64,000 nucleotides of DNA from an uncultured Lentisphaerota bacterium. Its GTDB lineage: Bacteria; Verrucomicrobiota; Kiritimatiellia; CAIQIC01. The stretch is from NCBI GenBank assembly GCA_903889245.1, contig CAISWQ010000044.1:1-64000 (forward strand), read 5' to 3'. The notes beneath the pieces were generated by a model that saw only the letters and a program-made list of their open reading frames with translations, was not told the origin of the DNA and did not search any database. Position numbers and translations under genes: made by a program. This document shows, one piece after another, positions 46 to 60,238 of the stretch (the first letter of the stretch is position 1; every line of letters begins with the position of its first letter).

Positions 46-137
46 ACCAATCCCACCACACCCACCCTGTGACATGACCACCCTCTTCCAACCATCCACC
101 CGACCCCCCAAGTGGTGCACTTGGTCCTTGCGCCCGC

Positions 138-180
138 GACCCTGGAAAAACACCGGCGGACTTTCCCCAAGCTTGGAAAC
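138..180. repeat. CCAAGG palindrome array, one clear and one decayed unit
   Basis: A clear unit of the TTTTCCAAGGCTTGGAAAA family lies at 161-180 (core CCAAGCTTGG, centre about 171). A half-decayed unit (CCCTGGAAAAA) ends at 150, about 32 bp upstream. The array ends 15 bp before the start codon of the epimerase-like gene. Confidence 0.7.
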
Positions 181-1554: not shown

Positions 1555-1660
1555 GTTCCAAGCCTTGGGGAAAGAGCCGCCCTGCCCAAGGCCGGGAATT
1601 TCCCCCGTGAGATTTTCCAAATCCTGGAAAAACCCGCCGTGACTTTTCCAAGCTTTGGAC
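1555..1660. repeat. CCAAGG palindrome array, four units
   Basis: Core centres lie at about 1563, 1591, 1622 and 1653, giving spacings of 28, 31 and 31 bp. Cores are CCAAGCCTTGG, CCAAGGCCGGG, CCAAATCCTGG and CCAAGCTTTGG. The array fills most of the gap between the epimerase-like gene and the next start codon, and its last unit ends 15 bp before ATG 1676. Confidence 0.85.
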
Positions 1661-7606: not shown

Positions 7607-7720
7607 CTTTTCCAAGGATTGGAAAACCAAACGCCCATTTTCCCAGGCATTGGAAAATCTCACGGAATTTTTTCCAAGCCTTGGAAATTTTCCGCTGATT
7701 TTTTCCAAGGCTTGGAAAAC
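7607..7720. repeat. CCAAGG palindrome array, four units exactly 31 bp apart
   Basis: Core centres lie at 7617, 7648, 7679 and 7710, so all three intervals are exactly 31 bp. Cores are CCAAGGATTGG, CCAGGCATTGG, CCAAGCCTTGG and CCAAGGCTTGG, each flanked by T-rich left and A-rich right arms. The spacers between units are unrelated to one another. The array spans the whole gap from the esterase stop to the Shine-Dalgarno of the next sulfatase gene. Confidence 0.95.
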
Positions 7721-18126: not shown

Positions 18127-18133
18127 CGAAGAT

Positions 18134-18308
18134 ACCCTGCCTTGTGCGTGACGGGGCCGATTCTTCTGACCCTACATGGTTAATTCCATTGGGAGTTCAG
18201 GTCCGGTGGCGGCTGCAAGCTTCATTGCTTCGCAAAACCCATCGGCAGAACACCCACCTTGTGAAAACAAGGTTCAGAAGACCAATGCCCTAGACGGCAA
18301 GGCGGGGT
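18134..18308 (+). ncRNA. ssrS: 6S RNA
   Basis: 6S RNA binds the sigma-70 RNA polymerase by imitating an open promoter. The fold can be read directly. The closing stem pairs ACCC (18134-18137) with GGGT (18305-18308), GCCTTG (18139-18144) with CAAGGC (18298-18303), and GGGC with GCCC (18287-18290). TCTTCTGA (18162-18169) pairs with TCAGAAGA (18274-18281). A large central bubble follows, with a small hairpin on its 3' side (ACCTTG 18256-18261 with CAAGGT 18268-18273). The apical arm begins CCGGTGG/CCATCGG. The 3' end runs into a T tract. About 175 nt and a place near pheT and the folate cyclo-ligase gene both fit. The ends are approximate. Confidence 0.8.
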
Positions 18309-18318
18309 TTTTTCTTTC
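18298..18318 (+). terminator. 3' end and intrinsic terminator of the 6S RNA
   Basis: The 3' strand of the closing stem (CAAGGC and GGGG) is followed at once by a T-rich run (GTTTTTTCTTTC), as expected where the 6S transcript ends. Confidence 0.6.
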
Positions 18319-19875: not shown

Positions 19876-20511
19876 ATGAAGCTGAAGCGGCAAAAAAATA
19901 TGTTACGGAAAAAAGCGTACGCGGCCCGCGCGCGGCTGTCGCCGGCGGCGGTGGCGGCGAAGAGCGCGCGGATCGCGGAGCGCGTGCTGGGGCTGGCGGC
20001 ATTCCGCCGCGCGCAAGTTGTCGCCACCTATCTTGCGCTGGCCGACGAGGTGCAGACCGCGCCACTCATCGCCGCGTGCCATGCGGCGCGCAAGCGCGTC
20101 TGCACGCCGGTGTTCGACGCGGTGACAAAGAGCTATCGCTTTGCCTGGCTGACGCCGCGGACGAAGCTGCGGGCCGCGCACTTCGGCGTGCTGGAGCCGG
20201 TGCGGCCGCGTCGCGTGGCGGCGCCGGCCAGGATTGAGCTGGCGCTGGTGCCGGGCGTGGCGTTCGACCGCGCGGGTCACCGGCTCGGCCACGGCCGCGG
20301 CTACTTCGACCAGTTGCTGGCCGGCCTCGCCGCCTGCAAGGTCGGGCTGGCCTTCGCGGCGCAGGTGGTGGCGCGCGTACCGCACGCGGCGCACGATGTC
20401 AGGATGGATGCGGTGGTGACCGAAGGAAAAGTTTTCCAGGGCTTGGAAAAAATCCGTCCGGATTTTCCAAGCCTTGGACAACCCGCGCGATGCTGGCGTG
20501 GGACTACATAA
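19876..20511 (+). CDS. 5-formyltetrahydrofolate cyclo-ligase with repeat-derived tail
   Basis: This enzyme converts 5-formyltetrahydrofolate to 5,10-methenyltetrahydrofolate using ATP, in the cytoplasm. The N-terminal basic helix (MLRKKAYAARARLSP), ADEVQTAPLI, VLEPVRP, ALVPGVAFDRAGHRLGHGRGYFD and MDAVVTEG are family blocks. I chose ATG 19876; ATG 19900 is possible. The conserved part ends near MDAVVTEGK. The remaining residues (VFQGLEK, DFPSLGQ and a short end) are coded by two palindrome units at 20431-20480, so the tail came from a repeat. It lies 13 bp after rarA and is part of the block around the 6S RNA, as in many bacteria. Confidence 0.88.
   Translation: MKLKRQKNMLRKKAYAARARLSPAAVAAKSARIAERVLGLAAFRRAQVVATYLALADEVQTAPLIAACHAARKRVCTPVFDAVTKSYRFAWLTPRTKLRAAHFGVLEPVRPRRVAAPARIELALVPGVAFDRAGHRLGHGRGYFDQLLAGLAACKVGLAFAAQVVARVPHAAHDVRMDAVVTEGKVFQGLEKIRPDFPSLGQPARCWRGTT
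20431..20480. repeat. CCAAGG palindrome array, two units, inside a coding 3' end
   Basis: Cores CCAGGGCTTGG (centre 20441) and CCAAGCCTTGG (centre 20472) are exactly 31 bp apart. Both lie within the 3' end of the folate cyclo-ligase gene and are translated as FQGLEK and FPSLGQ. Confidence 0.9.
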
Positions 20512-26233: not shown

Positions 26234-26348
26234 GTTTTCCAGGGATTGGAAAAGGAGGGCCCCGGTTTTTCCAAGGATTGGAAGATTTCGCGGAAATTTT
26301 TCCGAGGCTTGGAAAATTGCGCGCGTTTTTTTCCAAGGCTGGGAAAGC
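26234..26348. repeat. CCAAGG palindrome array, four units
   Basis: Core centres lie at 26244, 26276, 26307 and 26338, giving spacings of 32, 31 and 31 bp. Cores are CCAGGGATTGG, CCAAGGATTGG, CCGAGGCTTGG and CCAAGGCTGGG. The array lies upstream of the HtrA promoter in a 410-bp divergent gap that holds no gene. Confidence 0.92.
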
Positions 26349-29565: not shown

Positions 29566-31143
29566 ATGACAGACCAGAAAACTCCCCAGTCATCTGACAA
29601 AAATTTCCAAGGCTTGGAAAACGGCAGCGATGCGGCTTCCAAGGCTTGGAAAACCGAGGCGCCCGCCGGCGAGAAATCCACGGCGCAAGGCCGCAAGCTC
29701 AAGTTCGCCATCACGCTCAACACCGGTATCGCACTGGTGCTGGCGGCGGCGCTCTTCGGCATGGTCAACTACGCGAGCTTCCGCCACTACAAGCGGCTCG
29801 ACGTCAGCAAGAACAAGCTCTACCAGCTCTCCGACAAATCGCTCGGGCTGCTCAAGAGCCTGACGAACGCGATTGACGTGGTGGTATTCTTCCAGCCCGG
29901 CCAGGAGGTCTTTGAGGACGTGGACAACCTGCTGAAGGAATATCAGGACGCCTCGAAGCACATCCGCGTGCAGAAGATTGATCCCGACCGCGACCTGGCG
30001 AAGACGGAATTGCTGGCCAAGAAATACCAGGTCAGCCGCGCCAACACGGTCGTCTTCGACAACAACGGCCGGACGAAGTTCGTCTCGGCCGAGGACATCG
30101 TGGACATGGATTATTCCGGGATGCAGATGGGCATGCCGCCGCGCAAGACCGGTTTCAAGGGCGAGCAGGCGTTCTCCTCGGCCATCATGACGATCACGCA
30201 GGCGAAGTCGCCGACGATCTACTTCCTGCAAGGCCACGGCGAGCACGATCCCGACAGCTTTGACCGAACGAAGGGCTACTCCGGCCTCGCCCGCGAGGTC
30301 AAACGCGACAACGTCACGATCAAGAAGCTGACGCTCGGCGACCAGCAGAAGGCGGTCCCGGCCGACTGCGATGCTCTGATCGTCGCCGGCCCGCAGAAGA
30401 AGTTCGCGCCGGCCGAGGTCGAGCAGGTGCGCCAGTTCCTTTCCAAGAACGGCCGCGCGCTGTTCCTGCTGGACGCGCTGACCGACACCGGCCTCTCGCC
30501 GCTGCTCAAGGAGTGGGGCGTGGCCGTGGGCGATGACGTGGTCGTGGACCCCTCGCGCACGATGAGCGGCAACGAGCTATTCGTGACGCAATACGAGCGC
30601 CATCCGATTACCGAGAAACTCGAAGGCGTGAACTCGATCCTCTATCTGCCGCGCTCGATCACCGCGGTCGAGGAAGCCGCGCCCGGCCCGGAGGCCGCGC
30701 CAGACAAGCCGCGCGTCACCACGCTGATCAAATGTACCGCCGAGGGCTGGGGCGAAACCACGCCCGACCAGAACCCGGTGCGCTTCGATGCCAACCTGGA
30801 CCACAAGGGCCCGCTCGGCGTCGCCGCGGCGGTTGAGAAGGGCAGCGCGCCCGGCGCGCTCGATACGCAGATCAAGCCGGTGCGCCTCGTCGTATTCGGC
30901 GACTCCGGCTTCCTTGCCAACAGCGCGGTGGGCGCGGGCGGCGGGCTGGACCTGTTCCAGAGTTCGCTGAATTGGTTGCTCGACCGCAAAGAGTTGATGG
31001 CGATTGCGCCGAAGACGATCGCCGAGTACCGGCTGGTGCTCGACGCCCGGCAGTTGAATGCGCTGGGTTGGGCCGTGATCGGCGGGCTGCCGGCGCTGAT
31101 CGCGATTTTGGGTATTGCCGTCTGGCTGCGGAGGAGGGCGTGA
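29566..31143 (+). CDS. GldG-like ABC system auxiliary protein with repeat-encoded N-terminus
   Basis: This 525-residue protein pairs with the permease. It has one N-terminal transmembrane helix (about 49-68, LNTGIALVLAAALFGMVNYA), a large periplasmic part of the Gldg/ABC_transp_aux type (YFLQGHGEHDPDS, FLSKNGRALFLLDALTD) and a C-terminal helix (LGWAVIGGLPALIAILGIAV). Residues about 10-31 before the first helix are coded by two palindrome units (NFQGLEN and SKAWKT). The rest of the cytoplasmic tail is low in complexity, so the repeat appears to have entered a tolerant region. The DUF4340 gene starts 1 bp after the stop. Confidence 0.88.
   Translation: MTDQKTPQSSDKNFQGLENGSDAASKAWKTEAPAGEKSTAQGRKLKFAITLNTGIALVLAAALFGMVNYASFRHYKRLDVSKNKLYQLSDKSLGLLKSLTNAIDVVVFFQPGQEVFEDVDNLLKEYQDASKHIRVQKIDPDRDLAKTELLAKKYQVSRANTVVFDNNGRTKFVSAEDIVDMDYSGMQMGMPPRKTGFKGEQAFSSAIMTITQAKSPTIYFLQGHGEHDPDSFDRTKGYSGLAREVKRDNVTIKKLTLGDQQKAVPADCDALIVAGPQKKFAPAEVEQVRQFLSKNGRALFLLDALTDTGLSPLLKEWGVAVGDDVVVDPSRTMSGNELFVTQYERHPITEKLEGVNSILYLPRSITAVEEAAPGPEAAPDKPRVTTLIKCTAEGWGETTPDQNPVRFDANLDHKGPLGVAAAVEKGSAPGALDTQIKPVRLVVFGDSGFLANSAVGAGGGLDLFQSSLNWLLDRKELMAIAPKTIAEYRLVLDARQLNALGWAVIGGLPALIAILGIAVWLRRRA
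29602..29655. repeat. CCAAGG palindrome array, two units, inside a coding 5' end
   Basis: Cores CCAAGGCTTGG at centres 29612 and 29644 are 32 bp apart and identical. They are read in two different frames, giving FQGLE and SKAWK. Both lie between the start codon and the first membrane helix of the GldG-like protein. Confidence 0.92.
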
Positions 31144-41978: not shown

Positions 41979-42103
41979 GTGTGGCTCCCTAAAAGCGGCC
42001 GGCAGTCTAGGGCAGGCTCGCGGGCGGGTCAACGGCGGGGTCGCCTTTCGGCGTGACTTTTGGGGCTGAATCCGCAGAATGGCGCGCCGTTCGGGGCCAC
42101 ACG

Positions 42104-42655
42104 ATGGAAAACCTTTCGCTAAGTTGCATTGCCTACGGTCTGGGCGCGTTCTTCGTGCTCGTCAATCTGCCGTTCATCCTCTCGCCGGAGGGGACCCGGC
42201 GCGCGCTGCAATGGTTCCCGCGCAGCACTTTCCCGGCGTGGCTCCTGACGCTGCTCGATCTCTCCTGGTTCGGCTGGCTGCTCTACCACGAGCCGCTGTG
42301 GCAGTTCTTCGACTACGTCCGGCCGTGGCTGTGGCTGCTCATGCCGGTGCTGACCATCCTCGTCTGCGTCTTCATGGATGAACTGCTCGCCGCGCGCGCG
42401 CTCGGCGGCCTGCTGCTGCTCGTCGCCGGCCCGATCCTCGACGCCGCGCGCTTCCACCCCTCGCTCTGGCGCTATCTCCCGATCGTCATGGCCTACGTCT
42501 GGCTCATTGCCGGCATGATCTTCGTCCTTGCGCCCTATCGCGTGCGCCGCTTCTTCGAGTTCATCACGCGCACCGACCGGCGCTGCCGCGTCGGTGGCGG
42601 CGTCCGCCTCGCCCTCGGCCTGCTCTACCTCTGGCTCGCGTGGAAGATCTTCTGA
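42104..42655 (+). CDS. Small polytopic membrane protein
   Basis: The 183-residue protein has about five hydrophobic helices (IAYGLGAFFVLVNLPFIL, WLLTLLDLSWFGWLLY, LWLLMPVLTILVCVFM, LGGLLLLVAGPILDA, MAYVWLIAGMIFVLA) and a last one near the C-terminus. I do not recognise a characterised family. ATG 42104 lies 125 bp from the divergent hsdMS start. It is followed after 34 bp by the glycosyltransferase gene, with a GGAGTNNT element between, so both may serve envelope assembly; that is only a guess from context. Confidence 0.65.
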   Translation: MENLSLSCIAYGLGAFFVLVNLPFILSPEGTRRALQWFPRSTFPAWLLTLLDLSWFGWLLYHEPLWQFFDYVRPWLWLLMPVLTILVCVFMDELLAARALGGLLLLVAGPILDAARFHPSLWRYLPIVMAYVWLIAGMIFVLAPYRVRRFFEFITRTDRRCRVGGGVRLALGLLYLWLAWKIF

Positions 42656-42659
42656 AGAT

Positions 42660-42746
42660 GGAGTGGTGGAGTACTGGAGTGATGGAGTAATGAGCGGCAA
42701 ACCTTCCGATCCCCAGCTCTCCAGCACTCCCATACTCCAGCACTCC
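42660..42746. repeat. GGAGTNNT 8-bp-period inverted repeat element, copy 2
   Basis: The left arm is GGAGTGGT, GGAGTACT, GGAGTGAT and GGAGTAAT (42660-42691). The right arm is AGCTCTCC, AGCACTCC, CATACTCC and AGCACTCC (42715-42746). The start codon of the glycosyltransferase gene (42690) uses the last two bases of the left arm, and the right arm is translated as SSTPILQHSS. Confidence 0.88.
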
Positions 42747-43688
42747 AGTCCCCCCATCCGCATCCTCGTGCTGCGCGGCGGCGCGATCGGCGACTTCATC
42801 GTCACACTGCCCGCGCTGCGCAAATTGCGCGACCGCTGGCCGCAGGCGCACATCGAGTTGATCGGCTACCCGCACGTCGCCATGCTCGCGCGCGCCGCCG
42901 GGCTCGTGAACCACGTTGAGTCGCTCGACAAGGCGGAGATCGCGCGCTTCTTTTCCGCCAGCCCGAAATTCACCGAGGCGCAGTGCGACTATCTCCGCTC
43001 GTTCCACTTCGTCGTCACCTATCTGCACGACCCCGATGGCCTCGTCCGCGAAAATCTCACCTCCGCCGGCGCGCGGCAGGTGCTCTACGGCTCGCCGCTG
43101 ATCACCGCCGGCCACGCCGTGGAGGCGCTGCTCAAACCACTGGAGACCTTCGCGCTCTATGCCGAGGGCGTGGAGCAACCGCGCCTCGCGCTCGCGGCGG
43201 AGCAGCTCGCGTGGGGCCGCGACTGGCTCGCCGCGCGCGGCTTGGGCGGGAAGAAAATGCTCGCGCTCCATCCCGGCAGCGGCAGCCCGCGCAAGAACTG
43301 GCCGGTGGAAAACTTCATCGCGCTCGCGCGCCGGTTGCCGCGCGGCGTTGCGCCGCTGCTCGTGCTCGGCGAGGCCGATGCCGAACTCATCGCGCCGCTT
43401 GCGCGCGAGCTGCCCAAGGTGCCGCGCCTCGCGGGTTGTTCGCTTCTGGAAGTGGCGTCGGTGCTCGCGCATGGCGCCGCTTATCTCGGCAACGACTCCG
43501 GCATCACGCACCTGGCCGCCGCGCTCGGCCGGCCGGTGGTCGCGCTGTTCGGGCCGAGCAACCCGGAGCACTGGGCGCCGCGCGGCCCGCGCGTGACGCT
43601 GCTCCAGGCGCCCGACGGCAAGACCGCCGAACTCAAACTGGCTGACGTCGCCGCCGCCGTTTTCCAAGCCTTGGAAATTTCCGGCTGA
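42690..43688 (+). CDS. Glycosyltransferase family 9 (heptosyltransferase-like)
   Basis: The 332-residue protein resembles ADP-heptose:LPS heptosyltransferases (GT9, GT-B fold) that build the lipopolysaccharide core on the inner side of the inner membrane. Family blocks are IRILVLRGGAIGDFIVTLPA, LHPGSGSPRKNWP and ANDSGITHLAAA-like GNDSGITHLAAALGRP, followed by ALFGPSNPEHWAP. The family-like part begins at IRILVLRGG; the first 22 residues come from a GGAGTNNT repeat that also supplies the start codon. The C-terminus (VFQALEISG) is coded by a palindrome unit. Both termini are therefore repeat-derived, an unusual case. The donor sugar is not assignable. Confidence 0.88.
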   Translation: MSGKPSDPQLSSTPILQHSSPPIRILVLRGGAIGDFIVTLPALRKLRDRWPQAHIELIGYPHVAMLARAAGLVNHVESLDKAEIARFFSASPKFTEAQCDYLRSFHFVVTYLHDPDGLVRENLTSAGARQVLYGSPLITAGHAVEALLKPLETFALYAEGVEQPRLALAAEQLAWGRDWLAARGLGGKKMLALHPGSGSPRKNWPVENFIALARRLPRGVAPLLVLGEADAELIAPLARELPKVPRLAGCSLLEVASVLAHGAAYLGNDSGITHLAAALGRPVVALFGPSNPEHWAPRGPRVTLLQAPDGKTAELKLADVAAAVFQALEISG

Positions 43689-43711
43689 TTTTTTCCAAGG
43701 CTTGGAAAAAC
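43659..43711. repeat. CCAAGG palindrome array, two units, between convergent genes
   Basis: Cores CCAAGCCTTGG (centre 43669) and CCAAGGCTTGG (centre 43700) are 31 bp apart. The first unit is coding and gives FQALEI at the end of the glycosyltransferase; the second lies between the stops of two convergent genes, with T and A runs on either side that could serve as a two-way terminator. Confidence 0.92.
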
Positions 43712-43713
43712 AC

Positions 43714-45411
43714 TCACTGGCGCGCGCGCTGGAGAAAATCAAAGCCGCCGCGGTTGTAGCTGCGCACGTAGAGGTAGGCGCCGAGGTGCGCCGCCAGCGC
43801 GAAGGCCGGCAGGAGCAGCGCGCTCCACACCACCGGCGCAAAGAGCGCGGACAGGCCCAGGCCCACAAGCAGGAGCGCAAAAAAGATGATCAGCCCCACC
43901 GCGCGCAAGCCGCGCAGGCCCGGCGTCTGGCTGTCGTTGGTGACCGCGGAGAGCGCCATCGCGCACAGGAACGGCGCGGCGGCGGCGCTGATGAGCGAGA
44001 GCTTCAGGCCCAGCAGGACCAGAGCGGCCGGCGGTTTGTGCAGCAGGAGCGCCACCAACCCGCCGACGAGCAGCAGCGCGGGCAGCATGACCAGCGCGCG
44101 CAGCGCGGCGGCCTTGCGCGTCAGGCGCACGAACTCCCACGGATTCAGGGGATAGACGGCCGGCCGCGCGAGGCTCATGCCGTAGAGGACGACGCGGCTG
44201 GCGAGTTCGTCGAAGCCGGAGGCCAGCGGCAGGCCGAAGCAGAGGCCCAGGACAGCGAGCACCACGGCCGCGATGATGAACAGCATGTGCAGCCCGGCGG
44301 GCAGGAGCGGCAGGAGGAGCATGATGAGCAGCGCCACGGTCAACAACTGCAGGCTGCGCCACGTCCAGCGCGTCCAGGGCGGCAGGCGGTTGGCGATACA
44401 TTCCAGCACGAGGCGCTCGCGCGGCTGCAAGCGGCGGAAGAAAAACTGTTCCATCCACCCGCTCTCGTTGTCGTCGAGGCGCGCCGCCGCCCACGCGTCC
44501 CTCCACTCTGCGGCGGAGGGTTCCGGCGCGGCTGCCTCTGGCGCTTCGGGCGGCGCTTCCGCGTCCGTCGGTTCAAAGGCTTCCGCGCCCAGCCACTCTT
44601 CGAGCAAATGCCGTTCGGGCGCGATCTGCCGCATCATGGTGCGCAAAAATTGCGGCGCGCACGCCGCCAGCGCGAGCAGCGGGACCAGCGCCAGCCACCA
44701 CCACGCGGAGAGCGGGCCAAGCCCCGCGAGAAACAGGGCGGTGGTCCAGCCGCCGGGCGAGAGCAAGGTCAGCCACGTCGCCTGTGTCGTCAGCGTCTCG
44801 CGCAGCCAGTGCATCAGCCAGCCTGTCTTGTGGAAGATGAGCACGGCGAAGGGCAGCAGATACATGAACAGGGTCAGGGCCTGGGGCACCGGACAGCGCG
44901 TCAGCAATAGAACCGCGCCCCAGACGGCAGCCGCGTTGAGCGCCGCCAGCAGCGGCACGGCCAGCCAGCCGGCCGGTCCGGCTTGATGCGTCGCCGCCAG
45001 CACCACGAGGATGGCCAGGCCATCCCAGAACGGCCGCCACAACAGCGAGAGCACACGCGCGCGCGCCAGGCGCGCGAACGCATCTGGCGCGAAGGGCAGC
45101 GTCAGCAAGGCCGGCGGCAAGTCGAGCGCGTGGTTCACCACCACGCCGCGGCCGAGGATGATGACTTCCAGAAACCACCACGCGGCCAGGACCGGCGCCG
45201 TCGCCACCGCCCAGCCGCTGTCCTGGGTGATCCCGATCAGGGCCGCCGGCAGCAAACCCCAGAGCCAGCGGATGGACCAGACCGAGAACGCGCGCGTCCT
45301 CCAGCTTGTGCGGTTGCGGCGGACCGCGCGGCGCAGCGCGGGCTGGGCGCGGCACTCCGCTTTCACGAGGCGCTGCGTGGCGCGCACAAAAGCTGGATCA
45401 TGCAACTTCAT
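43714..45411 (-). CDS. ABC transporter permease-like membrane protein
   Basis: The 565-residue protein has many hydrophobic helices in two groups (about 45-260 and 330-550) separated by an acidic cytoplasmic segment (DAEAPPEAPEAAAPEPSAAE). No family name can be given with confidence, but the gene starts 4 bp inside the end of an ABC ATPase gene, so it is almost certainly its membrane partner. The N-terminal 40 residues are basic and cytoplasmic. No binding protein is encoded near, so export is more likely than import. The gene ends 3 bp from a palindrome unit. Confidence 0.75.
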   Translation of the reverse strand: MKLHDPAFVRATQRLVKAECRAQPALRRAVRRNRTSWRTRAFSVWSIRWLWGLLPAALIGITQDSGWAVATAPVLAAWWFLEVIILGRGVVVNHALDLPPALLTLPFAPDAFARLARARVLSLLWRPFWDGLAILVVLAATHQAGPAGWLAVPLLAALNAAAVWGAVLLLTRCPVPQALTLFMYLLPFAVLIFHKTGWLMHWLRETLTTQATWLTLLSPGGWTTALFLAGLGPLSAWWWLALVPLLALAACAPQFLRTMMRQIAPERHLLEEWLGAEAFEPTDAEAPPEAPEAAAPEPSAAEWRDAWAAARLDDNESGWMEQFFFRRLQPRERLVLECIANRLPPWTRWTWRSLQLLTVALLIMLLLPLLPAGLHMLFIIAAVVLAVLGLCFGLPLASGFDELASRVVLYGMSLARPAVYPLNPWEFVRLTRKAAALRALVMLPALLLVGGLVALLLHKPPAALVLLGLKLSLISAAAAPFLCAMALSAVTNDSQTPGLRGLRAVGLIIFFALLLVGLGLSALFAPVVWSALLLPAFALAAHLGAYLYVRSYNRGGFDFLQRARQ

Positions 45412-46142
45412 GCGGAGGTGCCGCGCAGCTTGCGGAATAATTCCTCCAGCGGATTCGCCGGGTCGCCGGCCTCGGCGCGCAGCGCGTCGAGGCGGTCATC
45501 GGCGCGCACCCGGCCCTCGTGCAGCACGATGATCCGGTCGGCGAAGCGCTCGGCGACATCGAGCAGTTGCGTGGAATAGAGCACCGTCCGCCCGCGCGCG
45601 ACGGCCGCGCGCACGACTTGCTTGAAGAAGCTGACGGCCAGCGGATCAATGCCCGAGGCCAGCGGTTCATCCAGCAACCACAGCTCCGGGTCCACGAGGC
45701 ACAGGGCGGCCAGGGCCGTCTTATAAAGCTGGCCGCGCGAGAGCGAGCCGACCGGCCGGTTGGCCAGCGGCAGCAGGTCCAGTTCCCGCAGCAACGCCAG
45801 CGCGCGCTGTGGCGCGTCGGCGGTTTCCTGCTCGTGGAGCCGCAGCACGATCGAGAGGTTGTGGATGATCGAGCGGTCCCAGAACAGCAGCGGAAAATCC
45901 GGCAGGAAGAACAACTGCCGCCGCAACGCCAGATCATCGCGGCGGAATTCCTTGCCGTTCAGCAGCACCGCGCCGCGGTCGGGCGCCAGCACGCCAGCCA
46001 GGCAGCGCAGCAGCGTGGTTTTGCCCGCGCCGTTCAGGCCGAGCACGGCGACCAGTTCGCCGGCGCCGAGTTTCAGCGAGACGGCATCCAGCGCCCGGAT
46101 ACGACCGTAGCGACGGCTGACCTCGCGCAGTTCCACTTCCAT
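45408..46142 (-). CDS. ABC transporter ATP-binding protein
   Basis: The 244-residue ATPase has Walker A GLNGAGKTT, the signature-region variant LSRGQLYKTALAALCL and Walker B LWLLDEPLASGIDP, with STQLLDVAERF around the H-loop region; the usual His after ST is Gln here, which is odd and may affect hydrolysis. ATG 46142 (MEVELREVSRRYGRIRALD) is a typical start; an upstream in-frame codon at 46211 is not needed. The stop overlaps the permease start by 4 bp. Substrate unknown. Confidence 0.9.
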   Translation of the reverse strand: MEVELREVSRRYGRIRALDAVSLKLGAGELVAVLGLNGAGKTTLLRCLAGVLAPDRGAVLLNGKEFRRDDLALRRQLFFLPDFPLLFWDRSIIHNLSIVLRLHEQETADAPQRALALLRELDLLPLANRPVGSLSRGQLYKTALAALCLVDPELWLLDEPLASGIDPLAVSFFKQVVRAAVARGRTVLYSTQLLDVAERFADRIIVLHEGRVRADDRLDALRAEAGDPANPLEELFRKLRGTSA

Positions 46143-46250
46143 GACAGGTTCTCCTTGCGTCCGCCCGTGGCGACGCGCGGGGAGTGTGAAGCCTCCCCCC
46201 AGCCAGCGCAACAGCGAAAGCCCTGTTCACCGGGTAAAGAACTTGCGAAA

Positions 46251-46284
46251 CCCAGTTGCACACCTCAAGAGGTGTGCAACTGGG
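46251..46284. repeat. TTGCACAC hairpin, copy 1
   Basis: CCCAGTTGCACACCTC (46251-46266) and GAGGTGTGCAACTGGG (46269-46284) form a perfect 16-bp stem with an AA loop. It lies between the start of the ABC ATPase gene and the end of the next sulfatase gene, both on the minus strand. Confidence 0.95.
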
Positions 46285-46319
46285 TTGGGATGAGCAGGCA
46301 CAGGAAAGCCCGCATGCCA

Positions 46320-46347
46320 AATTGCACACTTGAACAAGTGTGCAATT
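46320..46347. repeat. TTGCACAC hairpin, copy 2
   Basis: AATTGCACACTTG (46320-46332) and CAAGTGTGCAATT (46335-46347) form a perfect 13-bp stem with the same AA loop. Compared with copy 1, each changed base on the left arm is matched by a complementary change on the right. Confidence 0.95.
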
Positions 46348-46421
46348 CCCTGGCTTGGACGAAAATGAGTTACAACTATTCTGGGCCGGGGGAGCGTTTT
46401 TCAGCGGCCGTGGAAAGACCG

Positions 46422-47777
46422 TCAGGATTTCTTTTTGGCTTTGGCCTTGGCTTTCTCCACCCAGGGCCAGTTGGGGTCGTCCACGCGCGCCTGCTTCAGC
46501 AGCGCGGCGGCCTTGGCGACCAGTGCGGGCTGGCTGGCGGCAAGGTCGGTCTTCTCGGCGCCATCCTTGGCGAGGTCAAAAAGTTCGACCGCCGCGTGCG
46601 GTCCGTTGCGCACGGCCTTCCACTGGCCGAAACGCACCGCCTGAATCGGCCGGCCTTCGTGCAGCTCCCAGTAGAAATAATCACGCTGCGGGGCCGGGCC
46701 ACCCTTGAGGTAGGCGACGAGCGAGAGGCCGTCGGTCTTGCACGTCGCGGGAATGTGCGCGCCGGCCAGCTCGGCGGCGGTCGGCAGGAAATCCCAGAAG
46801 GCCCACGGCTCGTCGCTGACGCGGCCGGCGGGGACCACGCCGGGCCAGCGGGCGAGCGCGGCCTGGCGCAAGCCGCCCTCATAAAGCCCGCGCTTGAAGC
46901 CGCGCAGCTTGCCGCCCATGGACTGGTCGAAGAAACTGCCCAGTTCCGATTTCTCGCTCAACGAGGAACCGTTGTCGCCGGAGAACATCACAAGTGTCTT
47001 CTCGTCGAGCTTCAACTCCTTGAGCAGGTTCAGCAAGCGGCCGACGTCGGAATCGAGCCGGCTGACCATCGCGGCGTAGGTCTTCTGCTGCTGCGTCCAC
47101 GGCTTGTCCTTGTAGGGGCCGAGGTCATCAATCTCGTATTTCCCGTGCGGCAGCGTGATCGCGTAGAACAGGAAAAACGGCCCGTCCTGGTGCTGGCGCA
47201 CCCAACCGAGCACGTCCTTCTCGATCAGATCCTGCGCGTAGGTTTTGCCGTCGAGGTCGAGCTGCTGGTCGTCGTTGAACAGGTGGGTCGGGAAATAGCT
47301 GTGCGCGTGGCGCTGGCAGTTGTAGCCGAAGAAATGGTCGAAGCCTTTCTTCAGCGGGCTGCCGGTGGTGTTGAACATGCCCATCCCCCACTTACCCATG
47401 CAGGCGGTCGCGTAGCCGGCCGACTTGAGGATTTGCGCGACGGTGACGGTCTCCGCCGGCAGCGGCATCTGGCCCGCGCCGCGCGCGATCTCGCGGTTGG
47501 CGCGCACCGGCGAATGGCCCATGTGCTGCCCGATCATCAGCGACGTGCGCGAGGGCGCGCAGACCGTGGTGCCGCAATACGCCTGGTTATAGCGCGTGCC
47601 CTCGGCGGCCATCCGGTCGAGGTGGGGCGTCTGGATCAGCTTCTGCCCGTAGCAGCCGAGGTCGCCCTGCGCGAGATCGTCGGCCAGGATGAAGATGATA
47701 TTCGGCTTTCCGGCAGCGCAGAGCGGACCGGACGAGCAGAGCAGCACCGCGGCGATCAGCAGCCTGATTTTTTTCAT
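46422..47777 (-). CDS. Secreted sulfatase (S1 family)
   Basis: A 451-residue type I sulfatase with a signal peptide ([21 protein letters not shown]), ADD at residues 32-34, and [20 protein letters not shown] with Cys73 as the formylglycine precursor. MGKWGMG stands where GKWHLG is usual, so the His of that motif is replaced by Gly. [10 protein letters not shown] is the later metal site. The QHMGH segment with SPVRAN is found in a subset of sulfatases in this group. It ends in a basic tail ([10 protein letters not shown]). The next gene upstream in the operon ends 33 bp before its start codon. Confidence 0.88.
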
Positions 47778-47809
47778 TGTGAGCCTCTGGTTGGTGAGTG
47801 TCCCCGTCT

Positions 47810-49771
47810 TCAGAAATTCCAGCGCCGCGGCTGGCCGACGCCCTTAAGCTCGATCCAGTCCACCTCCACCGGCTGCTGGTGCGCCGGCAGATAAAGCCGC
47901 AGGATGCCGAGCGGGCCTTGCGCCGGCAGGTCCACGGTGATGGTCTGCCAGTCGCCGGGCGCGAGCGTGAACGGCACCGGCGTCGCCTCGGTCTGCTTCT
48001 GGGCCGGCGCGAGCCACGTCACCTTGCCCTTGCCGCCGCCGCGCACGCGCAACGTGAGTACCGCCGGGCCGGCGGTCCCCGCGCTGACGCCGAGGAACGG
48101 CGCATCGCCGCTGCCCCGCAGGGTGACGATGCCATCCTTCACCGTGGCCTGGCAGTTACGCGCCTTCCAGCCTTGCAGCTTCGGATCGCTTTCGTCCTTG
48201 GCCGGCGCCTTGGCTTTCGCCTTGGCCTTGGGCCTCTGCTTGCCCTCGTCCTCCGGCCGGTACTTGGCGGGATCGAACGCCGGGTTCGGGACGGGCACGA
48301 CGGCCTTGGTCTCGGCGAGGAACTTCTCGATGAGTGCATCGAGTTCCTTCACGCGCTCCGGTTCCTGGGCGGCGAGGTTGTTCTTTTCGCCCATGTCGTC
48401 GCGCAGGTTGAAGAGCAGATAACGGTGCGCGCCTTTTTCGCCGACGTGGAAAATGCGGATGAGCTTCCAATCGTCGCGTTCGATGGCGACGCCGGGCGGC
48501 AGCCAGTCGGGCACGCCGGGATCGTGCGGGAAGAACTGGCAGATGGCCTTGCCGGCGAGCGCCTCGCCCTTCAGCGCGGGCAGGATGCTGTGACCATCGA
48601 AGCGCTGGCCGGGCACGGGCTGCAGCCCGAGTACGTCGAGCAGCGTGGGATAATAGTCCTCGCTCTGGATCAGCGCGTCGCTGCGCGAGCCGGGCGGCGT
48701 GACGCCCGGCAGGACGACGACGCCCGGCACGCGCGTGCCGCCCTCGAACAGCGTGGCCTTGCCGCCGCGCAGCGGCCGGTTGCTGGTGGGCGGGACGCCG
48801 TCCACCTCGTTATACATGTTGCCGCCGTTATCGGCGGTGAAGACGATGAGCGTGCGGTCGGCGAGCTTCAGCCGGTCGAGCGTGTCGAGCAGCGTGCCGA
48901 CGGCGTCATCCATGCTCTCGACCATCGCGGCATAGGTGGGGCAGCGCTGCGCGTCGGCGGGATTGACGCGCGCGCGATGCTTCTCGATCAGCGCCCGCTT
49001 CGCATCGAACGGCGCGTGGACGCTGAACATCCAGTAGTTCAGATAGAACGGGCGGTCCTTGTGCTGCTCCATCCATTTGACCGCTTCCTGCGCCATGCGA
49101 TCCTCGATGTGCTGGTTCGGCTCGCCGGGATCGGCATCGAAGTCCGGGAACTTCCACGGCGCCACGTAGCTGCCCGCCGGGCCGGGGCCGGGCCAGTGCG
49201 GTAGATCCACATCGAAGCCCTGCTGCAGCGGCGAGTAGGGCTCCGCGCCCAGATGCCATTTGCCGAAGTGCGCCGTCGCATAGCCCGCGTCCTTAAGCGT
49301 CTCCGCCAGCGTGCGGTACTCGGTTTTCAGCCGCGTCACCGAGACCGGCATGATCGTCTTCTTGTCCGCCGGCGCGCCCTTGGCCAGCTCCGCCGCGAGG
49401 ATCACCTTCGCCTCGTGGCAGCCGGGCACGGTGATGCCCGTGCGCGCCGGACTCAAGCCCGTCATGATGGCCGAGCGCGTCGGCGAGCAGAGCGGGCTGG
49501 CCGAATGGGCGCGCGTAAAGACCATGCCGCGTCGGGCGAGCCGGTCGAGGTTCGGCGTCCGGTAGAACTGCGTGTGGCCATAGAGCGTCGTATCCGCCCA
49601 GCCAAGATCGTCGGCGAGGATGAAGACGACGTTGAGCTTCTTGTTTTCCAAGGGTTGGAAACTGGAGGGTGCGGTTTTTCCAGCCGAGCCTTGCGAGACG
49701 GGCAGCCCTTGGCTGCCAACCATTGGAAAAAGTCCCAGCGACAGGCAGACGGCGAGAAGAGCTTTGTTCAT
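47810..49771 (-). CDS. Secreted sulfatase with C-terminal beta-sandwich-like domain
   Basis: The 653-residue protein has a signal peptide ([20 protein letters not shown]), then a repeat-derived linker ([10 protein letters not shown]) before [19 protein letters not shown]. The signature [11 protein letters not shown] holds Cys95, the formylglycine precursor. HFGKWHLG and [12 protein letters not shown] complete the active site. After a Lys/Ala-rich linker ([15 protein letters not shown]) comes an extra domain (about 550-653) of beta strands ([38 protein letters not shown]), perhaps a carbohydrate-binding module. ATG 49771 overlaps the stop of the rhamnosidase gene by 4 bp. The pair is coupled, implying action on the same glycan. 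Confidence 0.88.
49643..49732. repeat. CCAAGG palindrome units inside a sulfatase signal-peptide region
   Basis: A good core CCAAGGGTTGG is centred at 49653, a decayed one near 49685 and CCAACCATTGG at 49721. Between them GGCAGCC-CTT-GGCTGCC (49701-49717) forms a hairpin. All are within the first 45 codons of the sulfatase, between the signal peptide and the catalytic domain. Confidence 0.7.
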
Positions 49772-52698
49772 GGGTTCACCTCGAAGCGGTAGGTGCCGGC
49801 CTCGACGGCGAGCACGGCGCAGCCTTTTTCCATGCGCAGGAATTTCACGCCTTCCGCTTTCACGAGCGGCCGGCCGCCCTCGGTGACCTGCCCGGCGTCG
49901 GCGGCGGGGACAAAAACCGTCGCGGTCGTGTTCGCGGGCACGGTCGCGCGTAGCGCGAAGCGGCCGCCCTTCAGGCTCCACTCGCTGACGATGCGGCCGT
50001 GGATGCAGTCGTAGTGCGCCTTGACCCAGTGAATCGGCGCGCGTTCGGGATTGCTGCCGGGCGCGGGCGGACGCGGGGCGATGATGATTTTGTCGTAGCC
50101 GGGGCCGTCGCTCTGGATGCCGGCGAGCGTGCCGAGCATCCATTCGCAGACCGCGCCGAACGAATAGTGTGCGAACGAATTCATCTCCGCGTTCTGCTTG
50201 CCGTTCTGGCCCTGGAAGCCGTGCTCCTTCGTGTAGCTGTCCCAGCGTTCCCAGATGGTCGTCGCGCCCTGCTCAACCTCATAGCCCCACGACGGGAATT
50301 TGCGGCTCTGGAAATGTTTCACCGCCAGGTCGTGTTCGCCGACGCTCGTCAGCACCGGCAGCAGCGGGCGCGTGCCGAGGAAGCCGGTGGTCATGCCGGA
50401 TTTTTCCGCGGTCTCGCCGGCGCGCAACTGGTTGGCGAGCATCTTCCCGGACTGCGCGCGCAGCGCGGCGGGGATCAGGTCCATAAACAGCGCCAGCGCG
50501 TAGGCCGTCTGCGTGTCCACCGTCAGCGAGCCATCGGGCTTCACATACTTGGTGTTGAACGCGCGCTTGATGTTGCCGAGCAGCTCGCGATAGGCCGCGG
50601 CCTCGGCGTCCTTGTGTACGGCGCCGGCCATCTCCGCCATGAGCTGCGCCGAGTAGGCGAAATAGACGGTGTCCACAAATTCCAGCGGCGTCTTCGTGCC
50701 GAACGACAGCCAGTCGCCCCAGTCGTTGCCGTGATTGATGCCGAGGAAATTCCGGCTCGTGGCCTTGCGCCACTCCATGAACTTCACCATCGTGGGCCAG
50801 CAGCGCTCGATGACGCGCGTGTCGCCGTAGGCCTGCCACACGGTCCACGGGCAGATCACGCCGGCATCGCACCACGCGGTGCCGAAATCCCAGCCGTGCT
50901 GGAACGGGTACGGCGCGTAGCCGGGGAACACTCCGCTGGGCTGCTGGCTCTCCATCAGCTCGCGCAGCCACTTGGTGTAGAACGCCGCGACGTCGGCGTT
51001 ATAGGTGGCACAGCGGACGTAGATCTGCGCATCGCCGGTCCAGCCGAAACGCTCGTCGCGCTGCGGACAGTCCGTCGGCAGGTCAATGAAGTTCGCGCGC
51101 TGCGTCCAGACGACGTTCTTGAACAGCCGGTTCGCCACCGGATCGGAGCACTCGAAGCCGCTGGTGAAAGGCGTATCGCTGTGCAGCACGAGCCCGGTGA
51201 TCGCGTCCCTGCCGGGCGTGCCGGGGAAGCCGGTGACCTCGACATATTGGAAGCCGTGGAACGTGAAGCGCGCCACGAATTCCTCGGTGCCGCCGCCGCG
51301 GCAGATATAGTGATCGGTCGCGCGCGCCTTGCGGTAGTTCTCGTTCATCAGCCGGCCGTCGGGATAGACCATCTCGCCGTAGCGCAGTTGAATCGTCGTG
51401 CCCGCCGGCGCTTTCACTTTCAGCCGCACGACGCCGGCGAAATTCTGGCCGAGGTTGAAGACAAAAACGCCGTTCGTCGGCGAGGTGATCGCCACCGGCT
51501 TGATTTCCTCGATGACGCGGACCGGCACGCCGGGGAACGCCTCTAGCTTCGGCGGCCGCTGGAAGCCGAGGTCCACGGGCCGGCCCTTGATTTCGATTTT
51601 CTCGCCCGGCTGCGGCGCGTTCGCCCACTCATAGAACGTCGCCGGCACGCGCCCGTTTTCGGCGGCGAGGATGGCCGGTTCCCAGGCCGCATCGTCGAAG
51701 CCCGGCTTCGACCAGTTCTTCATCTCCTTCCGCGCGTCATAGCATTCGCCCATCAGGAAATCGCCCTCGCGCACGGGGCCCTCGCCGGTGACCTTCCACG
51801 ACTTGTCGGTCGCCACGCTCTCGCGCGAGCCATCCGTGTATTCGATTTCCAGTTGCGCCATCAGCGCCGGCGTCCTGCCGTAGGTCGCGCGCCCGATCTT
51901 TTCCGTGCCGATGCCGGTCAGCAGGCCGAAGCCGATGTAGCCCGCATACCAGCCATCCGCCACCCACGCGCCGAGCGCATTGGCGCCGGACTGCACCAGC
52001 GGCGTGACGTCATAGGTCCGGTAGTAGGCGCGCTGGCGGTAGTCCGTCCAGCCCGGCGCGAACCATTCCGCGCCGACGCGCCGGCCGTTGAGCTGCAGCT
52101 CATAGATGCCGAGCGCGGTCGCGTAGAGCGTCGCGCGCTTGACCGGCTTGGCGGCGGCAAACTCCTTGCGGTACTGCCGCGCCGGCGGCAGATGGAGTTG
52201 CTTGGTGTCCTTCCACACCGGCGACGTGTCGCGGAAGCTGATGTAGCCGGCCTGCCAGTCGTTCTCCTGGAGCAGTCCCATCGTCCACGCGGCCGGTTGG
52301 CTCCACACCGCCGCGCCCGCCGCGTCCCACGCGCAGACTTTCCAGTGGCAAGGCTGGCGCGAGGCGAGCGGCCGGCCCGCGTAGGCGATGTTGATCGTCG
52401 CGCCACCTGCCACTTTCCCGCTATCCCAGAGATCGCCCGTGTTGCGCGCGAGCAGTGCGGCGCTCGAAGCGACCAGAATCTGATAGGCGGACTGCCGCGC
52501 ACCGCGCGCCGCCGACTGGATTTGCCAGCTCAACCGCGGCCGGGGCTCATCCAAGCCCAGCGGATTGACCAGATACTCGCAGCGCAACTCCACCGGCGCG
52601 CAACCCGCCGAGGAGGAGAACGTGGCGCACCCCAGCGGCCACGCGCCGCAGAGCGCGAGGAGGGGAACGGCGGACCAGAGAACGTTGCTCTTTTTCAT
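49768..52698 (-). CDS. Secreted alpha-L-rhamnosidase (GH78-like)
   Basis: The 976-residue protein is a glycoside hydrolase 78-type enzyme that releases terminal alpha-L-rhamnose. It has an N-terminal signal with a possible lipid-attached Cys24 (WPLGC), then beta domains ([40 protein letters not shown]), and the (alpha/alpha)6 barrel with the family block [18 protein letters not shown]. The conserved acidic residues of that block are the catalytic candidates. The C-terminal part holds [20 protein letters not shown]. The gene is coupled to the sulfatase by a 4-bp overlap, pointing to sulfated, rhamnose-containing polysaccharide such as ulvan-type chains; this is inference. Confidence 0.93.
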
Positions 52699-52899
52699 GC
52701 TGCTTCCTTTGTCAGGGCCAGACCCGCGAACGCGCAGAGAACGGCGCGCCGCGCAGGATAGTGCAAGGGAAAATCCCGCGGCTCAAGCCCCGTCTGTGCC
52801 CGGAGCGGTTGATTGCGAAGGCGCGAGACGGGCAGGTGGACAGAAAAACAGGCGACAGAAAAAGTCTTGCGGCGCGCACGTCCTACTGGCGGTTCAATT
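52699..52899. other. 201-bp intergenic gap
   Basis: No gene is seen here. On the minus strand, TTGAGC and CACTAT 17 bp apart might form a weak promoter for the rhamnosidase gene, but the match is poor. Two T-rich runs occur near the 3' end of the upstream gene. Confidence 0.35.
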
Positions 52900-55482
52900 T
52901 CAGTCGGTGCGCAGGAGGAACAAGCCTTCCAGCGGGGCGAGCGTAATGCTGGCGCTGACGGGCGCGCCGTTGTTGGCCTGCGTGTCCTGCTGCGGCGTCG
53001 CCTGCAGCCGGCGATGGCTGCGGCCGGGTGCCAGTTTGGCGAGGTCGAACGTGAACGGCGCGGGCGCGGGATTCGCCAGCACAAGACCGCGCTCGAAGAC
53101 GCGCGCCATCGCATCGGGCTGCGCGTGCGCGGTAATCTTCTCGATCGTCACCGGCTCACGGCCCTCGATGCGGAAGGTCAGGTCCACCGTCTTGGAACGG
53201 ATGTTACGGAAGTAGAAGGTCGAGGTGAACGGCTGCTCGTTCGCCCACGTCATGCGCTCCTGCGGCGGAGTGAGCTGGTCTTCGGTCGCGCCGACGGGCG
53301 CGAGTTTCACATCGCCCCAGTAGCCGTGGTCGGTGACGGCGTGGTCGCGCGGGCCGCAGTCGGCGACGAACTTGAGGCGGAGGCGCTGGCCCGCAAACTG
53401 GGCGAGCGGGACGGAGCGCGGCAGCCATTGATGGGCCTTGGTGGATTCCTCGAAGAGCTTGGTGAACGCGCCGGGCGTTGCACCGGTGAGCGGCGCGGCA
53501 TGGACGCTGAACCAGACGCCGTCGGATTTCTCCGGGCTCTTCACGCCCATGCCGAGTTGGAAGCGCAGTTCGCTGTTCGCCGGCACCTCGACATCGGCGT
53601 ACCAGAAGACGTAACCTTTCTCCGCTTGGAACGGCGGATGGACGGCGTAGGCGGGCAACAGCTTGTCGCCGATCTGCGTGGCCGCGCCATAATTGACCCG
53701 CGCGCCGGAACTCGCGGTGATCGGCTGTTCACCCTTGCCGCGCAGGGCCATGCCAATCAGCTCCAGCCTGCGCTTCATCAGCGACTGCACACCGCCGCCC
53801 ACACCGATCTCGGCGAAGCGCGCCATCTCGCGCGGATAGCCTTCGCTCGCGGCGGCCTTCATCGTCAGCACCACCACGAGGTTGCCGCCCCTCACCGGTA
53901 CGCCGGGAATGGTGAAGGCCGTGTCAGCCGCGTCTTTCGCGGTCGCGGTGATGATGACGGCGGCGTCGGTCGCGCGCACGGTCACCGGGCCCTTGATGCG
54001 GTTGGCCAGCGCCGCGCCGGACGCAGCCAGGCAGTCGGGCGCGGCCGCCGCCAGATGCAACGCCGGGCCTTCCGGCTTGCCGAGCCAGCCGAGTTTGTTG
54101 GCCGTGCCGCCGATGAACTCGTCCCAAATGCCAAGCCGGCCGCGGGTACTGCCCGGCGGCGCAAAGGAGTAGCAGAGCATCGCATCGGTGAACTGGCCGG
54201 CGGCGAAGACCAGCCGGTGACGCGCGAAGGGCACATCCGGGAACTGCTGCTCGCCCGGCTTGTCCGCGACGTGCTCGACCCACTTGTGGTTGATGTAGCT
54301 GAAGGCCGGCGCGCAGGCGTTGGCCTGCCAGAAGGCGTGACGGTTCAGGCCACCGGACCAGTCATTGAACTGCCAGTCGTTCAGGTTCGGCCAGCCTTCG
54401 CTCTCGATGCCGTTGAGGAGGCCGAACGCGCGCTGCGAGTAGCGGCCGCCGGGACCGAGCGCGCCATCGCCCTGGATGATGCGGTCCGGTCCGAGCCGCT
54501 GGCGCAACTGGCGCGCGAACTCCACCATGCCGAGGCCATAGCGGTTCACGCCCGCGCTCACGCCATCATCAGGCGCGCCATCGCCATCGGTGTCGCCATG
54601 CGTTTCGTTGAACATCACATCGAACTCGAGCCCATCGAACGCGGCGAGCTTGCCGCCCGGCCCGAACCACGCCGCGAGATCATCCACCAGCCGGTCGGCG
54701 CACGTCTGGCCCGCTGCGTCCCGCGGGCAGTGCGTGGCGAAGTTATAGAACCACAGCAGGTGATTGGTTTTGCCCCACGGCCCCTCGACCGCGTGCGCCG
54801 CCGCGCGCGCCGCGCCCGCCTTGAAGGCCAGCGGCTGCGTGCCGTAGCAGCCACGCTTCACGCGGATCGTGTTCGCCTTCGCATCCACCGCGAGCAGTTG
54901 CACCTGCTCGCAGTGCGCCCAGTCATGACGGCCGTCGGCCGTGAGGCTAAAGAGCGCGACATCGTCGTTGGCCGTGCGGTAGCGGCCGGTGTTGACCTTG
55001 AAGTCGGCCGTGTCCTCCACCTTGATCTCCGTCTCGCCCGCCGCCGCGGGGACAGCGGCGGTGATGCGCGCCGCCTTGCGGTAGATCCAGTGGCCGGGGA
55101 AATATTTTTCCGTCCCATGCAGTGGATCGCGCGCGTTGCCGTTGAAGTGCAGCAGGACGGCCTGCCGCGGATGCTCGCGCTTGAACCGCGAGAACCATTC
55201 GGGATTGCGTGCCTCGCGACCGAGCACCTCCTCGTCGAGGCACTTGCCCATGAGGCCCGAGAGCCGGCTGAAGTCGGCCGACCACTGCTCAAAGGTCAGC
55301 CCCTTGCGCGAGGGTCCCGACTCGCAACCGCGGAAGAAGAACACGCGCGGATACTCCGCGCCGAGCAGGTCCAGCCGGGCGGCGGCCTCCGCGGCGCGCA
55401 GCGCGGGCGGCGGCAACAACCACGCGGCCAGGACGACCGGCAACAGCAGGCGGATAAACGTATTTTTCGGAGCGGTGGACAT
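52900..55482 (-). CDS. Large secreted protein of unknown function, possibly a glycosidase
   Basis: The 860-residue protein has a signal peptide (about 1-30, FIRLLLPVVLAAWLLPPPALRA). The N-terminal half resembles a TIM barrel: YPRVFFFRGCESG, AVLLHFNGNARDPLHGTEKY, AFDGLEFDVMFNETHG and RIIQGDGALGPGGRYSQRAF look like successive strand ends with acidic residues. A short DTDGDGAPDDG loop follows, like a calcium site. The C-terminal part is beta-rich (LRFQLGMGVKSPEKSDGVWF). I cannot assign a family or activity. It sits in the glycan block ahead of the rhamnosidase gene. AAAGGA lies before ATG 55482. Confidence 0.65.
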   Translation of the reverse strand: MSTAPKNTFIRLLLPVVLAAWLLPPPALRAAEAAARLDLLGAEYPRVFFFRGCESGPSRKGLTFEQWSADFSRLSGLMGKCLDEEVLGREARNPEWFSRFKREHPRQAVLLHFNGNARDPLHGTEKYFPGHWIYRKAARITAAVPAAAGETEIKVEDTADFKVNTGRYRTANDDVALFSLTADGRHDWAHCEQVQLLAVDAKANTIRVKRGCYGTQPLAFKAGAARAAAHAVEGPWGKTNHLLWFYNFATHCPRDAAGQTCADRLVDDLAAWFGPGGKLAAFDGLEFDVMFNETHGDTDGDGAPDDGVSAGVNRYGLGMVEFARQLRQRLGPDRIIQGDGALGPGGRYSQRAFGLLNGIESEGWPNLNDWQFNDWSGGLNRHAFWQANACAPAFSYINHKWVEHVADKPGEQQFPDVPFARHRLVFAAGQFTDAMLCYSFAPPGSTRGRLGIWDEFIGGTANKLGWLGKPEGPALHLAAAAPDCLAASGAALANRIKGPVTVRATDAAVIITATAKDAADTAFTIPGVPVRGGNLVVVLTMKAAASEGYPREMARFAEIGVGGGVQSLMKRRLELIGMALRGKGEQPITASSGARVNYGAATQIGDKLLPAYAVHPPFQAEKGYVFWYADVEVPANSELRFQLGMGVKSPEKSDGVWFSVHAAPLTGATPGAFTKLFEESTKAHQWLPRSVPLAQFAGQRLRLKFVADCGPRDHAVTDHGYWGDVKLAPVGATEDQLTPPQERMTWANEQPFTSTFYFRNIRSKTVDLTFRIEGREPVTIEKITAHAQPDAMARVFERGLVLANPAPAPFTFDLAKLAPGRSHRRLQATPQQDTQANNGAPVSASITLAPLEGLFLLRTD

Positions 55483-55550
55483 GGCAGTCCTTTCGGCTTA
55501 CGACGGAGATAACGCCGCGCCGCGCCCGATGTTGTCGGAAAAAATCGGCC

Positions 55551-55578
55551 TTGACGGGGCGGACAGGGCTGCTACAAG
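55551..55578 (+). promoter_or_regulatory. Sigma-70 promoter of the lipoprotein gene
   Basis: TTGACG (55551-55556) and TACAAG (55573-55578) are 16 bp apart. The lipoprotein gene starts 33 bp downstream. The region is divergent from the unknown secreted protein gene. Confidence 0.6.
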
Positions 55579-55611
55579 GCAACCGTGCTCCAAACCACGG
55601 GAGAAAAAACA

Positions 55612-56327: not shown

Positions 56328-56441
56328 GTTTCCAAGGATTGGAAACCGGGAGGAGCGTTTTTCCCAAGGCTTGGACAATTTCGGCCCACACTTTTCCAAG
56401 CCTTGGAAAATTTCACCCCGTTTTTTCCAAGGCTTGGAAAT
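56328..56441. repeat. CCAAGG palindrome array, four units, between convergent genes
   Basis: Core centres lie at 56337, 56369, 56401 and 56432, giving spacings of 32, 32 and 31 bp. Cores are CCAAGGATTGG, CCAAGGCTTGG, CCAAGCCTTGG and CCAAGGCTTGG. The last unit reaches the stop codon of the sialidase-fold gene on the minus strand. Confidence 0.95.
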
Positions 56442-57613: not shown

Positions 57614-57623
57614 AGCACTCCCT

Positions 57624-58751: not shown

Positions 58752-58753
58752 GG

Positions 58754-60188: not shown

Positions 60189-60238
60189 GTTCCAAGGCTT
60201 GGAAAAACTGGTGGGGCCGTCTTCCAATCCTTGGACTT
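60189..60238. repeat. CCAAGG palindrome array, two units
   Basis: Cores CCAAGGCTTGG (centre 60197) and CCAATCCTTGG (centre 60229) are 32 bp apart. They lie in the 74-bp gap between two minus-strand sulfatase genes and reach the stop codon of the upstream one. Confidence 0.9.

Follow-up and report, generated by a model that had tools for sequence, protein, structure and literature searches.

Between a SASA esterase gene and a sulfatase gene lies an array of four copies of a short palindrome. Arrays of the same unit occur at nine other places in the window, by which we mean the whole 64,000-nucleotide stretch of DNA analysed, and all ten arrays of the original prediction were found at their positions (Table 1). 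The invariant part of the unit is TTCCA-N5-TGGAA, the core of a 7-1-7 inverted repeat. In the genome from which the window derives (5.26 Mb in 125 contigs, hereafter the window genome) this core is lengthened to TTTTCCAAGGCTTGGAAAA, with A/T in the flanks and G/C in the middle of the spacer. Searching the window for TTCCAAGGCTTGGAA with up to three mismatches yielded 54 matches, compared with 1.1 expected. Recounting the eight countable arrays gave the same 16 centre-to-centre distances as before, 15 of 31 or 32 bp and one of 28 bp.

Table 1 Palindrome arrays and a 6S RNA gene in the window, with the distances between unit centres and the neighbouring genes.
Feature	Position	Distances (bp)	Remarks
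Weak two-unit array	133..178	31	Units with 6/10 and 8/10 matches; near the 5' end of a GlcNAc 2-epimerase-like gene
Four-unit array	1556..1660	28, 31, 31	GlcNAc-epimerase-like gene on one side, HEAT/VWA gene on the other
Four-unit array	7610..7717	31, 31, 31	9 bp past the stop codon of the SASA esterase gene, 17 bp short of the ATG of the sulfatase gene
6S RNA gene	18131..18312		Rfam RF00013, 88.9 bits
Two-unit array	20434..20479	31	Upstream of an RNase Y-like gene
Four-unit array	26237..26345	32, 31, 31	Flanked by divergent DUF2851 and trypsin/PDZ protease genes
Two-unit array	29605..29651	32	Directly past an ABC-2 membrane gene; true start of the gene predicted across the array probably farther downstream, as its first match to Pfam comes at residue 82
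Two-unit array	43662..43707	31	At the 3' ends of a convergent gene pair
Two recognisable units	49646..49728	68	Units at 49646 and 49714, out of phase (exception); sulfatase gene downstream
Four-unit array	56330..56439	32, 32, 31	Convergent genes on either side; stop codon 1 bp beyond the end
Two-unit array	60190..60236	32	Flanked by two sulfatase genes on the - strand; stop codon 1 bp away

Phased arrays across the window genome

The window genome contains 1,553 forward matches to TTCCANNNNTTGGAA and none to the reversed pattern. Pairs of matches in phase (30-33 bp) number 746, while anti-phase pairs (25-28 bp) are absent and the reversed-pattern control yields no pairs. The genome-wide distance plot that the original prediction had put forward as its own test thus contains the peak. 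With one mismatch allowed, neighbour distances in 338 kb are 31 bp (58 times) and 32 bp (27 times), then 62-64 and 93-96 bp, with little else, and degenerate neighbours of good sites are likewise in register.

Arrays of the window genome are almost exclusively intergenic and recur at a mean interval of 5.2 kb. They are spaced more evenly than a random choice of intergenic gaps would give (CV 0.54 versus 0.88 ± 0.09; 0 of 5,000 trials). Using genes predicted with a home-made caller, for which start codons are approximate, we found arrays in 11 of 23 convergent, 8 of 28 divergent and 26 of 94 tandem gaps. Sulfatase genes are among those that the arrays flank. Even spacing and the use of gaps of all three orientations are consistent with chromosome-organising or membrane-anchoring sites, at which a sequence-specific nucleoid protein would bridge, wrap or tether DNA, with anchors about every 5 kb and the phase turning bound dimers towards the scaffold. 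That arrays flank many genes also fits a global regulator of the Lrp or AbrB kind, with arrays of dimer sites as its cooperatively bound operators, but the convergent gaps that carry arrays are promoterless.

A CRISPR-like array was considered and rejected. It would mean few loci, uniform repeats, long unique spacers and adjoining cas genes; here the arrays come about every 5 kb and hold 2-5 units of 15 bp, separated by 16-17 bp spacers whose edges are rich in A/T.

The arrays are hardly explained as hairpins in RNA or as transcription terminators. They often start 1-12 bp past a stop codon, and some sites in Pontiella are found at the tips of terminator-like hairpins (single sites at about 480 of L078 and about 2803 of L077 form the tips of longer ones, AAAAGGCGTTTCCAATGGTTGGAAACGCCTTTT, much like pairs of DUS and USS in their hosts). 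The arrays also fold better than shuffled sequences, trivially so given their repeated palindromes. However, no T-runs follow the arrays of the window, a terminator scan of 42001-62000 did not return them, divergent gaps carry arrays too, and a helical period is meaningless for RNA. Selection for an RNA shape, which had been offered as an option, is likewise unsupported, as the intergenic arrays of the window genome occur in every gene orientation and, within the genes of the relative G079 described below, phase spans all reading frames with distances that bear no relation to codons.

An origin of the arrays as mobile palindromic repeats, REP-like or otherwise, that spread through the genome by copying has several features in its favour, as known REP and BIME elements are palindromic, intergenic, abundant and patchy among relatives. 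Unlike those elements, the sites described here have no conserved unit beyond 15-19 bp, are helically phased and also occur in coding sequence. Moreover, spacers in the window genome are unrelated, in agreement with the original prediction: among 58 spacers (10 bp), one identical and two near-identical comparisons were found, with about 0.8 expected, so that the arrays do not derive from one parent by recent copying. At two loci the array is retained in the orthologous gap of same-genus genomes, with differing cores and spacers; at one of them the spacing is 31 bp in one genome and 32 bp in the other. Several arrays in G426 and G429, both of the same order, do share near-identical spacers, so some arrays there were copied as units, unlike those of the window genome.

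Helical register within genes

In other genera the sites also lie within genes. We analysed strict sites in 820 kb of G079, a genome assembled as a single 3.88-Mb contig that we take to be, probably, Tichowtungia aerotolerans. About 62% of these sites (124 of 201) are in genes, in all frames and at all positions within genes. In both G079 and G226, intragenic sites in all frames are accompanied by intergenic enrichment, whereas the sites of the window genome are nearly all intergenic.

Mutual distances between the sites of G079 are 22, 30-32, 41-43, 51-53, 62-64, 71-73, 83-85, 94, 103-106, 114-116, 125 bp and so on, corresponding to every whole number of helix turns, a register that extends to about 400 bp. 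The coherence R of the phase is 0.88 at 16-110 bp (104 pairs) and 0.58 at 110-400 bp (77 pairs), with the same values for pairs sharing one gene, and fades at 400-600 bp. None of 2,000 trials in which sites were randomly jittered by 5 bp matched the observed coherence. Distances within the same gene are not multiples of three, so the pattern is not a protein repeat. Fitted with zero phase, the period is 10.43-10.46 bp (95% intervals for G079, 10.41-10.47). Pontiella displays a weaker but significant phase at short range (R=0.62, 22 pairs); a long-range phase was looked for there and not seen.

Of the 31-bp phasing first described in the window, the phase is thus conserved but the 31-bp unit is not, as relatives also use 22, 42, 52, 63, 73, 83 bp and further distances. 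Binding of a dimeric protein to one face of the helix, as originally proposed, is strongly supported by the phase statistics. Since all integer turns are allowed, and not just those of adjacent contacts, the dimers are more likely to sit on a common surface or to be looped than to be stacked. Integer-turn distances and the coding sites of G079 speak strongly against copies of a 31-bp unit, against hairpins in RNA and against conventional promoter operators. In the case of mobile repeats, duplication of a unit cannot produce spacings that take any integer number of turns in coding DNA. Phase coherence to about 400 bp and the toleration of coding sites anywhere in genes are in turn what chromosome-organising sites would show.

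The evolution of sites was followed in a 14-kb syntenic block of Pontiella. Four site-rich species have 12-17 sites each in this block, often at shared codons. Two congeners lack sites there altogether, and the conserved positions differ by substitution. Genic sites of Pontiella therefore arose by substitution and not by insertion, which makes copied repeats a very improbable source. Perfect copies outnumber single-mismatch copies in all three genomes studied (201/149, 72/46 and 116/49), a surplus that speaks against a scaffold function.

Of ten genes of G079 that are especially rich in sites, most are housekeeping genes (CysS, MiaA, PrmC, PdxA and CoaBC-type). In the same genome, a stretch of 52 kb (C1:168048-220540, loci L118-L121) has no strict site; judged by eye from the protein starts, it encodes sulfatases, adhesin-like proteins, transporters, efflux systems and regulators, and looks like an accessory island. 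A comparison of core and accessory genes based on sulfatases alone was neutral, and an enrichment of sites in core genes is suggestive only.

Distribution of the sites and candidate reader proteins

The class-wide extent of the sites, their dialects and their mostly coding location in other genera had been missed in the original prediction. We surveyed 346 genomes of Kiritimatiellia (Verrucomicrobiota), including Pontiella and Pontiellaceae, and 388 genomes across the phylum, among which the sites are confined to Kiritimatiellia and patchily distributed. Pairs at 30-33 bp total 7,484 and occur in 95 of the 346 class genomes; 46 pairs at 25-28 bp occur in 11 of the 346, mostly Pontiella. Many genera possess intergenic arrays only. 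Some species of Pontiella hold more than 1,000 sites, whereas congeners with the same gene order hold almost none, which would be odd for an essential scaffold. Among the genomes of this genus, G157, G226, G246 and G032 are site-rich, G047 and G084 are site-free, and G441 and G436 are intermediate.

Two dialects, TTCCAA-N3-TTGGAA and TTCCAY-N3-RTGGAA, were distinguished. The latter is used in several lineages, at 22- and 31-bp spacing, and is carried by some genomes, of family f3; counting these as sited leaves the conclusions on protein presence and absence unchanged. Two genomes, G240 and G044, seem to have changed dialect independently of each other.

Four Pontiella genomes (G157, G226, G246 and G032) have fairly common pairs at 25-28 bp, near-absent elsewhere, and in them 29-bp pairs recur at orthologous positions. 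Pontiella may therefore permit a second spacing. In the site-poor G432, of the same family as the window genome, the sole phased pair (L024, 1501-1547) is located in a phosphoribosylanthranilate isomerase-like (TrpF) reading frame, in an apparent inserted loop. Phased TTCCAA pairs were present in only 3 of 2.9 million viral contigs of IMG/VR (L211-L214), a count that is uninformative about phages of Kiritimatiellia. No other enriched palindromes were found in the site-free loci scanned, Rfam gave no relevant family, and no description of phased palindromes turned up in the open-access papers searched for the sequence of the site and for the taxon.

The site sequence and its spacing led us to examine known DNA-binding families. 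TTCCA-N5-TGGAA resembles the bipartite motif of AbrB from Bacillus subtilis, TNCCA-N4/5-TGGNA, but AbrB-domain proteins (PF04014) are missing from several site-rich genomes, among them G062, G079 and G246. Fur, which has a 7-1-7 box, was rejected too, as PF01475 is absent from G000, G062, G115, G437 and G160. ParB is universal, with one copy nearly everywhere and no second HTH_ParB protein in site-rich genomes; it does not track the sites, a further point against a scaffold. ComEC is encoded in 45 of 48 genomes tested, sited and site-free equally, and competence genes do not discriminate between the two.

Lrp-type dimers bind along one face of DNA with their centres two or three turns apart, for example at the Ss-LrpB boxes (PMC2995911), and 22 and 31 bp are common spacings here. 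In contrast to such Lrp/AsnC arrays, the sites number in the thousands, occupy any integer number of turns to about 400 bp and extend to coding and convergent regions. A spacing of two or three turns is thus shared in part with Lrp operators, and location in a control region is not. Each of the 47 genomes tested has one Lrp/AsnC protein, disregarding some short additional copies of the domain. Site-rich and site-free Pontiella have near-identical versions of it, HTH included, and its presence does not follow that of the sites. Arrays in convergent gaps and sites throughout genes make a classical regulator less likely, and we consider operators of a global regulator an unlikely explanation overall.

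This Lrp/AsnC protein of about 160-165 aa is conserved class-wide, and relatives with 53-84% identity are found across Verrucomicrobiota, site-free lineages included. In the clade using TTCCAY-N3-RTGGAA (Lrp genes L232, L233, L243, L249 and L251) it carries arginine immediately ahead of the recognition helix (MIRSTP, for instance), a place taken elsewhere by G, N, D or K. The arginine possibly reflects a single event or co-evolution with the site.

An autoregulated binder might be encoded next to its own sites, but no recurrent regulator was seen among the genes read beside the few arrays of site-poor genomes, or beside triple arrays in g8/g13 (five of 21 loci). Among Lrp, AbrB, Fur, ParB and ComEC, none was identified as the binding protein or receptor.

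Possible readers of the phased sites

The sequences themselves show the site, its phase and the range of that phase, its occurrence in coding DNA, its dialects and its patchy spread through the class. From these patterns we infer a protein reader and its multivalency. TTCCA-N5-TGGAA would be the site of a sequence-specific protein, most simply a dimer, and several copies of the protein may engage one stretch of DNA from one side. Loci with several sites would then be under selection to turn every dyad to the same face of B-DNA that is straight and torsionally relaxed. The palindrome is probably kept in chromosome-wide helical register, genes included, by a multivalent surface, such as an array of uptake receptors or a scaffold anchoring the DNA, to which one face of straight DNA is presented across hundreds of bp.

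As to the nature of this surface, our tentative preference is for a genome-wide tag of self-DNA read by a multivalent receptor. Such a tag would work like the uptake sequences of Neisseria and Haemophilus, with many copies of the receptor on a surface. Through avidity, such a surface would capture fragments bearing several sites in phase, and the genome would acquire further sites by recombination. This reading rests on copy number, perfection, use of all frames, dialects and evenness, which match DUS best. Like the DUS of Neisseriaceae and the USS of Pasteurellaceae, the sites come in hundreds to thousands of near-perfect copies, occur, in G079 and G226, in coding sequence in all frames with enrichment between genes, are conserved at orthologous positions, are fairly evenly spaced, exist in dialects, lie in some cases in terminator hairpins and are patchy among relatives. 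Neisserial DUS are enriched in core genes, absent from recently acquired genes, conserved and dialectal (PMC2397512, PMC3630211).

There are also differences. Each site here is a 15-bp palindrome in helically phased clusters, whereas a single DUS or USS is not palindromic, and many genera here have intergenic arrays alone. According to the relevant passages of PMC7811141, uptake in Haemophilus is no higher when two uptake sequences lie close together, and one Neisseria study cited there agrees; the same passages make no mention of helical phase for these sequences. The almost exclusively intergenic arrays of the window genome, which also flank sulfatases, count against an uptake tag.

Folding or anchoring of the chromosome is possible and nearly as likely as the self-DNA tag, which we favour over it and, next, over a global regulator. 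The period equals that of relaxed B-DNA, which suits DNA that is linear or free of torsion; for loops in supercoiled chromosomes, longer apparent periods have generally been reported, which weighs against a scaffold. Sites of the ParB/Noc type are likewise dispersed palindromes, recognised by proteins that act at the nucleoid or membrane. Those systems have far fewer sites and, to our knowledge, no helical phasing. Genome-wide, helix-locked sites that include genes are covered by no known family tested, and we know of no other chromosome with thousands of dispersed, often coding sites phased over hundreds of bp.

Overall, evolution has in effect measured the helical repeat of DNA through this pattern, which implies that the reader approaches straight, relaxed DNA from a single side. 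Were this reader an uptake receptor, Kiritimatiellia would become a third lineage to possess uptake tags, and one in which multivalency can be seen to shape a genome. If it is instead a chromosome scaffold, the sites would provide a directly readable map of the points at which a bacterial chromosome is held.
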